Source: Candidatus Desulfovibrio trichonymphae
GTDB taxonomy: Bacteria; Desulfobacterota; Desulfovibrionia; Desulfovibrionales; Desulfovibrionaceae
Assembly: GCF_002355955.1 (NCBI RefSeq)
Contig: NZ_AP017368.1
Coordinates: forward strand, 890,001 to 954,000
Length of the DNA: 64,000 nucleotides
Direction of reading: 5' to 3'
The notes beneath the pieces are model-generated. The model did not search any database. It was not told the DNA's origin and saw nothing but the letters and a program-made list of their open reading frames with translations. Within the stretch, counting starts at the first letter, position 1, and each line of letters begins with the position of its first letter. Made by a program: the position numbers and the translations under genes. Of the stretch, positions 33,291-37,687 are shown piece by piece.

Positions 33291-34268
33291 ATGAATCGCC
33301 CCCGTGAAGTGCTTACCGGCTCTTTGTCCATTACGCTTCTTGCCGCGGCTTTCTGCATCTGGAGCGTCTTCGGCAACGACATCAATTTTTGTGTTACTGC
33401 AGGATGCTCCCTGTATCAGGACTTCACGCTCAACGGCATTTCGCTGTGGCTGGTCGGCACAGGCGTTTTCGCCGTGCTGGCCCTGCTGTCTCTCGTGGGC
33501 GCGGCATCCTTGGGCCGCGCAGTCGCGGGCATTGCCCTGACAGGCGATATCTGCCTGCTGCTGCTCATGACACTTACCGCCCCATGCGTAAGCTGCCTCA
33601 TCGCGGCCCTGTTTTTTGCCGCAAGCTACATGAGCTTCAGCCATGCCGAAACAGGGGCGATCCGCATCAGCAACGCAAGACGGCGCCGTTCACTTCTGCT
33701 CTGGGTTTGGGCATTGCTTTTCACAATCAATATCGGCGCCCTCGTCCGCTCCCAGAGCGAAATCTGGCCAATTATCCCGGCGGATGACGAAGTAACGACA
33801 CGCCTTTTTTTCTCCCCTTCCTGCTCCGGTTGTCAGGAAGCGGTCACCATGCTCTCCGGCCATGTGGATGTGGCTTTCTACCCGATTGGGGAGAATGACG
33901 CAGACATTTACAAAATCGCACAGATGCGCGAACTGCTGGACACAGGCATGAACCTTGCCGAAGCGCTTGCCCGGTCGCGGGAGGTGCAGGCGCCGCACGG
34001 CTTTTCGTCTTTCAGTCCCGACATGCTCTTGCTGCGTTTCAGAATGCTACGCAACAAGGCCCATATTTTTTCAGCAGACGCCCAATCAGTGCCTTTTTTT
34101 GAATATCAGGGCTTGCCGGCCGCGCTGCTCATGCAAAAAAAACAGACAGGAACGCTGCCGCCGCAAGGCCGTGGGCAAGATAATCTTTCACGCGACGGCT
34201 CTGATGCAACACTCCCCCTTGATTCCCCCTCAGAAGAACGTTGCGGCGCAACCACGCCCTGTCCTTAG
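33291..34268 (+). CDS. VKOR-like membrane protein with thioredoxin-like domain
   Basis: A 325-residue protein. The N-terminal 150 residues have about five membrane segments with a cysteine pattern like vitamin K epoxide reductase homologues: C34 and C39 (FCVTAGCS) after the first segment, and a C99-x-x-C102 pair (PCVSC) in a later one. A periplasmic thioredoxin-like part follows, with C178-x-x-C181 (SPSCSGCQEA) after a beta strand. In bacterial VKOR-Trx fusions the membrane half reoxidises a periplasmic disulphide-forming partner using quinone. The C-terminal 40 residues are Ser/Pro-rich and look disordered. AGAGGT lies before the ATG. No dsbA is nearby. Confidence 0.65.
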   Translation: MNRPREVLTGSLSITLLAAAFCIWSVFGNDINFCVTAGCSLYQDFTLNGISLWLVGTGVFAVLALLSLVGAASLGRAVAGIALTGDICLLLLMTLTAPCVSCLIAALFFAASYMSFSHAETGAIRISNARRRRSLLLWVWALLFTINIGALVRSQSEIWPIIPADDEVTTRLFFSPSCSGCQEAVTMLSGHVDVAFYPIGENDADIYKIAQMRELLDTGMNLAEALARSREVQAPHGFSSFSPDMLLLRFRMLRNKAHIFSADAQSVPFFEYQGLPAALLMQKKQTGTLPPQGRGQDNLSRDGSDATLPLDSPSEERCGATTPCP

Positions 34269-34320
34269 ATATGAACCTGCAGGGAAACGGGCAGCCGGGT
34301 AATAAAATTTTCATTTGTGC

Positions 34321-34350
34321 TTGACAGTTTTCGTATTTTGTTTGTATAGA
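34321..34350 (+). promoter_or_regulatory. Consensus-like sigma-70 promoter for the autotransporter locus
   Basis: A perfect TTGACA (34321-34326), an 18-base spacer and TATAGA (34345-34350). It lies about 265 bases upstream of the autotransporter ATG, so the mRNA would carry a long leader that includes the (AC)10 tract and a hairpin. Confidence 0.65.
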
Positions 34351-34397
34351 GAGAAAAACCTCATGGTTTTTTGCATTGTAACGTAAAGGCATAGTGC

Positions 34398-34619
34398 ATG
34401 TGGTCAGGGCAAGGACAAATTTTCCCGCGCGGAGCGGAGAGAGATTCGGGCGAAGCTGACGGTTTCGGCCCGATTCTTGCTACACACACACACACACACA
34501 CTAACTCCGCAGTGCCGCGCTGTCCGCCGCAAGGTTCAGCGCGGCTTTCGGCGTTTCCTTCGGACATGGTGAATTCAGCATTATCGTTTACATATAAAAA
34601 CAGGGGAAGGAATTTATGA
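34398..34619 (+). CDS. Possible coupled leader ORF carrying the (AC)10 repeat
   Basis: A 73-residue open frame starting eight bases after AAAGG, running through the (AC)10 tract (encoding THTHTHT) and stopping in an ATGA overlap with the autotransporter start at 34616. There is no recognisable domain. The overlap and ribosome site suggest a leader peptide coupled to the large gene. Gain or loss of one or two AC units would shift its frame and remove the overlap. There is no proof it is translated; it may be an open frame by chance. Confidence 0.35.
   Translation: MWSGQGQIFPRGAERDSGEADGFGPILATHTHTHTNSAVPRCPPQGSARLSAFPSDMVNSALSFTYKNRGRNL
34482..34501 (+). repeat. (AC)10 dinucleotide repeat
   Basis: Ten uninterrupted AC units in the leader between promoter and autotransporter start. 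Such tracts are slippage-prone during replication. Confidence 0.97.
34514..34545 (+). promoter_or_regulatory. Hairpin in the autotransporter leader
   Basis: A perfect 9-base stem, GCCGCGCTG (34514-34522) and CAGCGCGGC (34537-34545), with a 14-base loop, followed by a weakly T-rich stretch. It could act as an attenuator or mRNA-stability element; the T-run is too short for a confident terminator. Confidence 0.4.
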
Positions 34620-37600
34620 AAAGAAACTACGTAAAGCAGTTTATGGTTACTCTGATAACCATAACCATGTTTACAGCGTATCCGTTTTTTACCCGGGCGG
34701 AAGATCTTAATGGTGGTGGAAAGTTGCCTTCAGACTTGTCCACCGGCTTGATTGATCTAGCAAGAGGGGAAACGGGCGGTTTGAAAAAACTTATTTCTGA
34801 TGCTGTAGAGCTTGCTATAACCAGTTTTGGTGGTACAGCTTTTCCGTCAGATGCGATGATTGAACCAACAACAAATCTTGGTGGATACCATTTCAAGGAT
34901 TATGCTGGTAACAATGCTGTACTATATGGCAATATCGGCAATCTTAGTGAAATTGTGTTCAACAATAATACAGTAACCTTTGAGGTGGGCGACAATCTAC
35001 GAGGCGGCGGCGTATTAAGAGCTGGTGAGAATCAACAGATAGGCGCCATCGACAATGCTATTTTCAGTAATAACACAGTAACAAAAAATGGAGACGGCGA
35101 TTTCCAGGGTGGCGGCATTATCGGAGCCTATCGGGGAACTATAGGCGATATCAGCAACAGTATATTTAACGATAACATCGTAACAGCCACCGAAATAATG
35201 CGTGGTGGTGGGATAGTTGGTGTTTATGGTGTTCAGGAAGCTTCAGCCATTGGTGCCCTTAAGAACAATATATTCAGCGGCAACACGGTAACAATCGCCG
35301 ACACTATGGCAGGTGGTGGGATAGTTGGTGTTCATAGTAGTCAGGAAGCTTCAGCCTCTATTGGTGCCGTTAAGAACAATATATTCAGCGACAATACGGT
35401 AACAATCGACGCAGTAATTCGTGGTGGTGGGATAGTTGGAGTTTACACTGATAACCTGCAAAGTGCCGATGGGACATATATAGGAGATATTACAGATAAC
35501 ATATTCAGCGGTAATACGATCATTGCTTCTGGAGTTGTTGGTGGTGGTATTGTTGGTGCTGATACATACAGCACAATAGGCGATATTGTCAATAATGTTT
35601 TCGATAACAATACTGTAATTACCACGGGCTCACTTTGGACAGGTGGTATTGTTGGTGCTTTAAATCAGAGTACTATTGGCGATATTATTGATTGTACGTT
35701 CACCAACAATGTTATTTCTGCTATAGATATTAATGGCGGTATTGTTGGTACTTTAACAAGTACAATAGGCGATATCAGTGGCAGTATATTTGCTGATAAT
35801 ACAATTACAGCAAGAGGTAATATACGTGCCGGAATACTGTATCTTGAAGATAGTTTGACAGTCACTGATAGTCAGTTTACAGATAATATATTTACTTCTT
35901 TGCAGACGTATGATTCGGGTCGTGTATACGGTGGTGCCATTACACTGGATACCGGCACCGACATCGCCGCTTCTTCTGGGACTTTGTCCTTAACTATAGT
36001 TGCAACTGCCGGCAACACAACGATTTTCCGGAACAACGAGATTAATGATATTGATGGAAAACGGACCAATTCCATCTCTATCCGATCGACGACACCGATA
36101 ATCGAACCCCATAGCAATGCTGACGCGACTCTTGTCATTTCCCCATTCTCGGGTGGTGATGTATATTTGTATGACCCCATCTATGTGGAACAGGACAACG
36201 GTAAAACATTCGGAATGGAAGTTACTCAGGATGGATACTTTTACTGGGGCGGCGATAACAAGTTTATTGTAGACGCGCCCGATGCTGAAAAAAATATTGT
36301 CAATTTGCGTCAGTATACTAATACATCGTTAATGAGCGGTTTCAATTTGGATGCGCCCAATCACGATTTTAATATGAGTCGTTATGCAAATCTGCATATA
36401 TATCCTGGAAGCAGCATGACTGTGCATGCGGCCGATTTAAGAGGAATGTTAGCATTTTATCTGCGAGGTATTCCAGTCAATAATCAAGATAATCCAGTGT
36501 TAACTGTTACAGCGGACAGCATCAGTATTGATGGAATGTGGCCACAACTAGATTTCTCTGGCGATGTTGAACCATTGCAGTTTGGCGACAAATACTATCT
36601 GCTTCGCGGAAGTACAGAATTGGCAGGTAATATTAAAGACAGCGGAATTCAAACAATACAACACGGTTCTCTTCTTGAATTCACTTTTCAGTTGAGGAAA
36701 GACGGCGACAACGACTTCGTTGCTGAACTTATTGAATCTGACGGCCCAGGCGGCGGTGGTACTCCTGTTGTACCCGGTGCCAAATCGATAACCGAAGGAG
36801 CCTCTGTTGGGGCAGCTCTTGCCAATCAGGGTGCGGACCTTGCGGCAGGCGCAGGTATGGGAAGCGCAATCAATTCTGCGAAAGAAGATGCCTGGGGTGC
36901 TTTCGCTGTTGTTGATGCAAGCAGCATGCGTTATAACACCGGTTCATATATTGACACAAGCAGTGTAAATTTGATGGCCGGTATTTCACGTAATATAAAT
37001 ACGGAAATCGGTAAACTGACTGCCGGTGCCTTTTTTGAATATGGTGGAGCTTCATACGATATTCATGGAAGCGGCAACACTTCCTATATTGGTGGCGGTT
37101 TGCTGGGTCACTTAAAGTTCAATGATGTCGGCCCGGGTCACTTCTATACAGAAGCCGCGGCCCGCATCGGTGGACTCAATAATGATTATGAATCCACCAG
37201 ACTGAAGGATGTTTCCGGACGCAAGGCCTCGTTTGATACGGAATCGACGTATTACGGTATTCACGCCGGTGTGGGCTATGTGTGGAACATCACCGAGGAA
37301 GCCTCTCTTGATGTGTACGGCAAATACTTCTGGTTGCACCAGGACGGCAATGACGCAACAATTTCCACAGGCGAACCGGTAAGTTTTGATCCGATTGATT
37401 CTCATCGTCTGCGTGGCGGAGCTCGATTTGCCTATGCAATCAACGAGTATATCAGCCCTTATATCGGTGCGGCCTTCGAATATGAATTTGACGGCAAGGC
37501 AAGAGCGTCTGTATGGGGCTATGATCTCAAGGCTGCGAAGTTCGAAGGAGAGACGGGCATTGGTGAAGCGGGTTTGGTTTTTAAACCTTCCAGCAAATCT

Positions 37601-37687
37601 CCGTGGCTCGTTGATCTCGGCGTGCAGGGCTATGTCGGCAAACGCGAAGGCGTGAGCGGTTCCCTCCGCGTGGGACTGGAATTCTAG
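34616..37687 (+). CDS. Autotransporter adhesin-like outer-membrane protein
   Basis: A 1023-residue type V secreted protein. It has a signal peptide (1-28; core FMVTLITITMFTAYPFF then TRA-E). The passenger (about 100-430) holds roughly ten repeats of a pattern IGxIxNxIFxxNTVT...GGGIVG, typical of a right-handed beta-helix. A linker with SDGPGGGGTPVVPGAKS follows, then a C-terminal autotransporter beta-barrel of about 270 residues ending in aromatic F (RVGLEF). AAGGA precedes the ATG. Codon and base use are visibly AT-richer than the flanking genes, suggesting acquisition or relaxed selection. No protease motif is seen in the passenger, so adhesion or surface display is likelier than proteolysis. 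Confidence 0.9.
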   Translation: MKRNYVKQFMVTLITITMFTAYPFFTRAEDLNGGGKLPSDLSTGLIDLARGETGGLKKLISDAVELAITSFGGTAFPSDAMIEPTTNLGGYHFKDYAGNNAVLYGNIGNLSEIVFNNNTVTFEVGDNLRGGGVLRAGENQQIGAIDNAIFSNNTVTKNGDGDFQGGGIIGAYRGTIGDISNSIFNDNIVTATEIMRGGGIVGVYGVQEASAIGALKNNIFSGNTVTIADTMAGGGIVGVHSSQEASASIGAVKNNIFSDNTVTIDAVIRGGGIVGVYTDNLQSADGTYIGDITDNIFSGNTIIASGVVGGGIVGADTYSTIGDIVNNVFDNNTVITTGSLWTGGIVGALNQSTIGDIIDCTFTNNVISAIDINGGIVGTLTSTIGDISGSIFADNTITARGNIRAGILYLEDSLTVTDSQFTDNIFTSLQTYDSGRVYGGAITLDTGTDIAASSGTLSLTIVATAGNTTIFRNNEINDIDGKRTNSISIRSTTPIIEPHSNADATLVISPFSGGDVYLYDPIYVEQDNGKTFGMEVTQDGYFYWGGDNKFIVDAPDAEKNIVNLRQYTNTSLMSGFNLDAPNHDFNMSRYANLHIYPGSSMTVHAADLRGMLAFYLRGIPVNNQDNPVLTVTADSISIDGMWPQLDFSGDVEPLQFGDKYYLLRGSTELAGNIKDSGIQTIQHGSLLEFTFQLRKDGDNDFVAELIESDGPGGGGTPVVPGAKSITEGASVGAALANQGADLAAGAGMGSAINSAKEDAWGAFAVVDASSMRYNTGSYIDTSSVNLMAGISRNINTEIGKLTAGAFFEYGGASYDIHGSGNTSYIGGGLLGHLKFNDVGPGHFYTEAAARIGGLNNDYESTRLKDVSGRKASFDTESTYYGIHAGVGYVWNITEEASLDVYGKYFWLHQDGNDATISTGEPVSFDPIDSHRLRGGARFAYAINEYISPYIGAAFEYEFDGKARASVWGYDLKAAKFEGETGIGEAGLVFKPSSKSPWLVDLGVQGYVGKREGVSGSLRVGLEF
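35204..35430 (+). repeat. Near-identical tandem repeats in the autotransporter passenger
   Basis: Two adjacent copies of about 108 and 111 bases (aligned GGGATAG anchors at 35210, 35318 and the next at 35429) share long identical stretches, including GGTGGTGGGATAGTTGG, TCAGGAAGCTTCAGCC and AAGAACAATATATTCAGCG. They differ by one inserted Ser codon and scattered bases. This points to a recent in-frame duplication of one 36-37-residue beta-helix unit. Confidence 0.85.

Follow-up and report, generated by a model that had tools for sequence, protein, structure and literature searches.

How a bacterium might switch a surface protein on and off from outside the gene itself is the question raised by an autotransporter locus of Candidatus Desulfovibrio trichonymphae, which is probably a symbiont of the termite gut. 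It lies in a 64,000-nucleotide stretch of that genome (NZ_AP017368.1, positions 890,001 to 954,000; hereafter the window, whose plus-strand coordinates are used throughout). The gene for a 1,023-residue autotransporter (34616–37687) is preceded by a separate short open reading frame (ORF), the leader, which contains ten AC dinucleotides; the original prediction was that changes in their number act as a translational on/off switch. Comparison of the locus with its copies in the same genome and with relatives elsewhere indicates that it is probably a repeat-length switch operating through the leader ORF, by translational coupling to the downstream gene, by transcription attenuation or by both.

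The layout first proposed for the locus is exact to the base. A putative promoter, TTGACA-18-TATAGA (34321–34350), matches 10 of 12 consensus bases, with TTGACA at 34321–34326 and TATAGA 18 nt on at 34345–34350. The putative ribosome site AAAGG (34385–34389) precedes an ATG at 34398, from which the 73-codon leader runs to 34619 in the ten-unit register. A predicted hairpin (hairpin A, 34447–34472) stands a little 5' of the (AC)10 tract (34482–34501), and inverted repeats resembling it by eye are found in relatives. Beyond the tract lies the terminator-like hairpin B (34514–34545), a perfect 9-bp stem GCCGCGCTG/CAGCGCGGC joining 34514–34522 with 34537–34545; between tract and gene in this copy a hairpin reaches −26 kcal/mol, and its T-run is weak. 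The autotransporter ribosome site, GGGGAAGGA (34603–34611), lies within the leader ORF, and its GAAGGA (34606–34611) is predicted to pair with UCCUUC at 34556–34561 in a fold of 34502–34640 whose z-score of −1.68 is weak on its own; the predicted fold of the whole leader has z = −2.51. The leader stop overlaps the autotransporter start in an ATGA (34616–34619). The protein carries the C-terminal β-domain of type V autotransporters (about 36944–37564; Pfam PF03797, residues 777–983, E = 6e-15, 56 bits against a cut-off of 26).

Changing the unit number of the window leader by script shows what each register would encode. With n = 10 the 73-residue leader ends in the ATGA; with n = 9 or 12 a TAA that immediately follows the tract (34502–34504) ends it 111 nt before the autotransporter ATG, the n = 9 register thus terminating before hairpin B; with n = 11 or 5 it stops at a TGA (34570–34572) 43 nt before that ATG. 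A count changed by one or two units shifts the leader frame and abolishes the overlap, as had been claimed: at n = 9, 11, 12 and 5 the leader ends before the ATG. We infer that transcription starts at a promoter upstream of 34381 and gives an mRNA whose first ORF, the leader (34398–34619), is translated. Replication slippage in the tract would then set the unit number and with it the frame in which ribosomes leave the tract. With n = 10, 13, 7 and so on, a ribosome would cross hairpin B and the helix that possibly masks the downstream ribosome site and stop on the ATGA, where the exposed autotransporter start would be re-initiated (ON). With n = 9 or 12 it would stop at the TAA and leave the hairpins folded (OFF), and n = 11 or 5, with a stop 43 nt short, would perhaps give an intermediate state.

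The source genome holds its own record of change in the tract. It is a single contig of 1,410,056 bp, 98.9% complete (consistent with the 1.4-Mb complete genome of Candidatus Desulfovibrio trichonymphae Rs-N31 in the accessible part of PMC7608387), and a PF03797 search of it found four autotransporter copies, each with a frame open and free of stops. With the tract collapsed, the block 34381–37687 is identical in all four. The tracts have 10, 10, 10 and 5 units (the (AC)5 copy lies at about 725.8 kb of G000:C1), which is the sole difference over 3.3 kb; the tract has therefore changed faster than the rest of the block. The genome contains exact (AC)10 at three places, all of them inside copies of the locus, and the reversed-pattern control gave 0, so the tract is not a chance occurrence. 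In being a perfect short repeat of slippage-prone length, with a unit number that differs between otherwise identical copies, it resembles loci whose phase variation arises by slippage of a simple sequence repeat (SSR).

A variable repeat in a presumed mRNA leader could also be the target of a trans-acting small RNA with a GU repeat, pairing with the AC tract so that tract length tunes expression gradually. The principle exists: the accessible part of PMC8295292 describes the variable G-repeat in the Helicobacter pylori tlpB mRNA leader, acted on in trans by the small RNA RepG, which resembles the present locus in having a variable repeat in an mRNA leader and differs in its trans-acting RNA. 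Such regulation is very unlikely here, since the genome contains no separate exact (GT)10, all of them lying in the locus copies (shorter ones were not searched), and the frame-specific features would be left without explanation.

The four copies (L014, L015, L016 and L017) have identical gene bodies, two promoter types and mosaic 3' flanks. L014 and L016 carry the second promoter type, with the same TTGACA and part of the spacer, and the terminator region is common to three of the four. The mosaic flanks suggest gene conversion among older paralogues at the four loci. A deletion remnant (L018:6558–7003; G000:C1:595557–596002) fuses promoter and leader start to the autotransporter 3' end, joining 143 bp of promoter and first leader part (96% identity) to the last 303 bp of the gene. 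A diverged, shortened autotransporter paralogue (L019:5357–6739; G000:C1, about 115.4–116.7 kb; 73–89% identity) also has a 29-bp match to the promoter region of the autotransporter locus.

We then asked where else such leaders occur. A DNA search with 34381–34700 matched 28 of 288 Desulfovibrionaceae genomes, mostly at the tract and its borders. The pattern TTGC, 0–2 bases and (AC)6 was found in 27 of the 288, in 4 of 44 genera; a single genome often has several matches, with a maximum of 17 (overlapping registers counted twice), against 3 matches overall for the reversed control. Class-wide, 26 of 297 genomes matched, with 0 of 47 outside Desulfovibrionaceae. A scan of named genomes returned 20 stretches: ten from Desulfovibrio, four from Deltaproteobacteria, three from Accumulibacter (one metagenome-assembled genome, MAG), two from Azoarcus (one MAG) and one from Riflebacteria. 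Within the family of the Accumulibacter MAG, 2 of 199 genomes matched, that MAG itself (G288) and G440, whose single match (L240) was judged by eye. For the Azoarcus genome G289 the pattern gave 3 matches and the reversed control 2; because that control is not clean, the Azoarcus case rests on two loci with a readable leader and terminator. The Riflebacteria match (L101) has 4 units, its genome gave none with a wider pattern, and we took it as chance. A phage origin was rejected, one exact pattern having 0 matches in viral_contigs.

Requiring at least 5 units, which dropped L101 and L111 (4 units each), and counting doubly fetched places and the four own-genome copies once each, we assembled 105 oriented elements, whose tracts span 5 to 58 units, a single genome contributing as many as 11 elements. 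The original prediction had staked itself on a count that is not fixed, and the count varies both among the four copies (10/10/10/5) and across these elements. Near-identical sequences were removed before the sets of 84, 78, 69 and 28 used below, and not before the set of 76. Draft contigs of G126, G127, G282, G283 and others often end near an AC tract (for example, L152, L162, L167, L172 and L211), which is what one would see where a long or variable tract disrupts assembly from short reads. The sample prefixes Kf353 (Accumulibacter) and Gx485 denote termite samples, from Kalotermes flavicollis and Glyptotermes, in the accessible part of PMC11707648; with two prefixes traced to termites, AC leaders may be restricted to termite guts.

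The leader frame is retained in these relatives. Relative to the TTG that precedes the tract, the window leader's frame stays open over more than 60 nt of upstream sequence in 85% of elements; the other frames do so in 41% and 15%. ATGs 60–100 nt upstream of the tract divide 74/18/16 by frame among 84 non-redundant elements (binomial P = 9e-14, a value resting on the incorrect assumption that related ATGs are independent). An ORF with an ATG start runs into the tract in the window's frame in 59 of the 84 (shuffled mean 18.4, maximum 31), in the other two frames in 22 and 5 (9.7 and 17.1 expected), and in any frame in 81 (shuffled mean 39, maximum 52). The spacing between leader starts adds nothing to the case, since starts that share a frame are necessarily a multiple of three apart; the weight is borne by the 74/18/16 division and the shuffles. 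Stops per codon number.017 in the leader frame,.031 and.036 in the others and.056 in shuffles. The usual leader reads approximately MKVQAKKIFR...RAE..GFGLIFA(HT)n; a group that includes toxin–antitoxin loci uses another frame, with a start 21–27 nt before the tract. Leaders of G085 have AAGG at the window's spacing in 6/6 cases and AAAGG in 4/6, and promoter-like scores of at least 9 precede 23 of 90 leaders, compared with 7% of shuffles.

The codon-level conservation originally expected thus holds for the frame, not for the peptide. In 28 diverged leaders, differences fall nearly evenly on the three codon positions (.35/.36/.37), the peptide is hardly conserved and selection on it is unsupported; in the window leader and its six closest relatives only, an in-frame synonymous excess (59:65 versus 4:108 and 13:64; 14 variable sites) weakly supports it. 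Such weak amino-acid selection fits a device that positions ribosomes better than a functional peptide. A poorly conserved peptide would also suit a leader that is translated while the length of its tract leaves regulation unaffected, the repeat being neutral hypermutable DNA. We consider this unlikely, as neutrality hardly accounts for the element's recurrence, with its conserved frame, exit stops and terminators, before dozens of genes unrelated to one another.

A downstream gene was taken to be an ORF on the tract strand, 60 codons or longer, whose start lies no more than 450 nt away; of 82 elements followed by 300 nt or more of sequence, 78 have one. In a set of 78 non-redundant loci, two of the three exit frames are stopped within 30 nt in 22 (8.5 expected) and none is stopped in 10 (34 expected); 69 loci with a predicted gene were used for the comparisons with gene starts. 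The long exit frame and the predicted gene start share an exact 4-nt overlap (ATGA or GTGA) in 13 of 69 loci (permuted mean 0.46, maximum 4 in 2000), the exact overlap being absent in the other 56, and the exit-frame stop falls within −15 to +10 of the gene start in 26 of 69 (permuted mean 9.2, maximum 19). Between tract and gene, the ATGA register stays free of stops in 23 of 69 loci versus 7 and 10 of 69 for the other registers (17/138; Fisher P = 4e-4, odds ratio 3.6). Set beside its relatives L110, L116 and L118 in G085, the window copy retains hairpin B and the ATGA.

Hairpins with a T-run are also enriched between tract and gene, occurring at −15 kcal/mol or below in 61 of 76 loci (15% of shuffles) and at −18 kcal/mol or below in 47 (5% of shuffles). 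All 49 loci with a terminator within 130 nt have a frame that passes it, and in 40 there is also a frame that stops before it, counts for which no null was computed. Because most of the relatives tested carry a terminator-like hairpin in this interval, attenuation is likely to act as well as coupling: the repeat-length switch remains the leading model, with attenuation as a likely addition to the translational mechanism first proposed. In relatives with a stronger terminator, the register would also decide whether transcription continues, by translation-mediated antitermination.

The precedent for this comes from Streptococcus gallolyticus, where, as the accessible part of PMC3894217 describes, GCAGA repeats in the leader ORFs of pil1 and pil3 fix the ribosome's stopping point with respect to a premature terminator, as shown by mutants. 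Carried over in its pure form, such attenuation would make the distance from leader stop to terminator all that counts, with the ATGA overlap incidental. We regard this as a serious contender, a little short of an even chance: the mechanism has been tested by mutation in S. gallolyticus (same part of PMC3894217), the hairpins at or below −15 kcal/mol are widespread, and terminators are present also at loci without an ATGA. It leaves unexplained why the ATGA register is favoured, and the window copy is without a strong terminator. Since the window copy lacks the relatives' terminator and has the predicted ribosome-site pairing, unmasking of that site by a translating ribosome, and hence coupling, is the likelier step there; in the relatives attenuation would be the likelier one.

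Several observations weigh against a repeat-length switch through the leader. In the window, a strict consensus scan of 34250–34640 found no sigma-70 promoter, the −10 element being without its final T, and a strict scan of the same interval found no terminator, the hairpin T-run being poor; the CCTGTCC...CAGGGC terminator hairpin of L110, L116 and L118 is absent. To the near-even codon differences across leaders may be added that 43 of 69 loci lack a long exit frame with a stop close to the predicted start of the gene, that L106 (G085) is uncoupled, and that the 49 loci with a nearby terminator are, as assembled, divided into 26 that stop before it, 19 that pass it and 4 that stop inside it. 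RNAalifold on 51 aligned downstream regions found one 4-bp consensus helix only. Gene starts were picked by script on the plus strand only, tract lengths come mostly from draft MAGs, and the elements are kin by descent, which makes the P values optimistic. Variation in the Rs-N31 population is very low, at 0.027 single-nucleotide polymorphisms plus indels per kb (accessible part of PMC7608387).

The genes behind AC leaders are diverse, and here the original tie to a surface protein or adhesin fell away, as sensor, cyclic di-GMP, glycosyltransferase and toxin–antitoxin genes carry the leader too. We ran Pfam on 50 of the 78 predicted same-strand genes, on the window protein and on three more window translations; 41 of the 50 matched and 9 had no family at E 0.001. 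Matches include autotransporters, an inverse autotransporter, GGDEF/EAL and HD-GYP proteins, chemoreceptors, histidine kinases and a sigma-54 activator, as well as glycosyltransferases, sugar enzymes, FecR proteins, permeases, binding proteins, a PEP-CTERM protein and a STAND-like ATPase. Toxin–antitoxin matches are a PIN protein and a Phd/YefM-like antitoxin, the latter below the Pfam cut-off. VapBC-like pairs stand behind AC leaders at L153, L155, L160, L181, L184 and L185 in several genomes, with the PIN match in L153, the Phd/YefM-like one in L155 and the rest assigned by sequence similarity; these loci have a distinct leader subtype with its own CCGG-rich hairpin.

The repeat is multi-copy and found in distant lineages, as would be a mobile repeat, or one of att-site type, in which the AC tract served as a target for recombination and played no part in regulation, and an integrase gene follows the tract at L105 and L189, with a similar flank at L161, L174 and L202. 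Yet the longest open stretch lies on the tract strand in 50 of the 62 loci with at least 1,500 nt downstream and on the other strand in 12, the same-strand proteins mostly match Pfam (41/50), and the leader frame and ATGA register are enriched; we therefore judge a purely recombinational role quite unlikely. The integrase genes are of phage type (L189 by Pfam, L105 by sequence similarity), and the post-tract sequence is similar in all five loci, the last three ending too early to show an integrase. AC leaders may thus serve as targets of an integrative element.

Amino-acid operon attenuators (trp, his, thr) also consist of a leader ORF followed by hairpins and a terminator, and the AC leader is rich in His and Thr. 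Unlike in those operons, His-Thr stems from the AC repeat itself, which always reads so, and no His or Thr biosynthesis family was matched by the 50 downstream proteins tested; for these two reasons attenuation by His or Thr supply was rejected.

Repeat-based phase variation within coding regions is familiar from Neisseria, Haemophilus and Campylobacter, where a slippage-prone repeat makes output dependent on frame. A few of our loci (L120–L124, L216 and L217) have one register that enters the gene directly as an N-terminal extension, and L124, L216 and L217 resemble those systems in this; the window differs, its tract lying in a separate leader ORF. In Haemophilus influenzae lex2A/lex2B a small upstream ORF with a repeat controls the downstream gene. 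That arrangement is alike in its repeat-bearing upstream ORF and unlike in its tetranucleotide unit, single locus and gene class (a glycosyltransferase). The closest precedent is pil1/pil3, with an SSR in a leader ORF that has its own ribosome site, upstream of a surface-structure operon (accessible part of PMC3894217). The AC loci share the repeat-holding leader ORF and, in the 40 of 49 loci counted without a null, frames that stop before and frames that pass the terminator. Unit number sets the ribosome stop relative to a premature terminator in pil1/pil3 and is predicted to do so at AC loci, a likeness of mechanism for which no homology is claimed. The differences are the AC unit instead of GCAGA, the unrelated bacteria, the frequent ATGA coupling to the gene start, the dispersal of the cassette before many functional classes and not two pilus operons, and the absence of a strong terminator from the window copy.

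The architecture had been put forward as new. Its basic mechanism is not, given the tested pil1 precedent (PMC3894217, in the part available), which was the only mechanism match among the matches listed for leader-peptide or upstream-ORF phase variation and for phase variation or slippage in Desulfovibrio or termites. The element itself went unreported in the titles and abstract openings of these matches, in literature that leaves most subscription journals outside its coverage. As far as these searches reach, the AC unit, the ATGA coupling, the reuse of one recognisable cassette at dozens of unrelated genes and its occurrence in distant lineages are new within the literature covered. No Rfam family scored above its gathering threshold in 34200–34800, the best being narK RNA (16.6 bits against 43.2).

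Most of what is known of phase variation concerns pathogens and a small number of gut commensals, and usually a single locus. In the present case a complete control unit, made up of leader start, repeat and hairpins, seems to have been put to use dozens of times over, at unrelated genes and in unrelated bacteria. We lean, by a narrow balance, towards a portable, horizontally shared phase-variation cassette of termite-gut Desulfovibrionaceae and Betaproteobacteria, by which genes across a genome would flip independently, each locus with three translation outcomes: early stop, read-through without coupling, and coupling. It would front autotransporters, chemoreceptors, cyclic di-GMP enzymes, histidine kinases, glycosyltransferases, permeases and toxin–antitoxin operons. 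Such reuse would open a way to test whether symbionts of protists and termites employ stochastic switching as a general strategy, and would supply a natural, modular slippage switch. Because a reduced genome of 1.4 Mb keeps four identical copies of the switchable surface protein, a role in attachment to the host or in life within it seems plausible. The passenger coding region of that protein contains direct repeats of its own, of about 111 bp in 2.3 copies (35196–35443).

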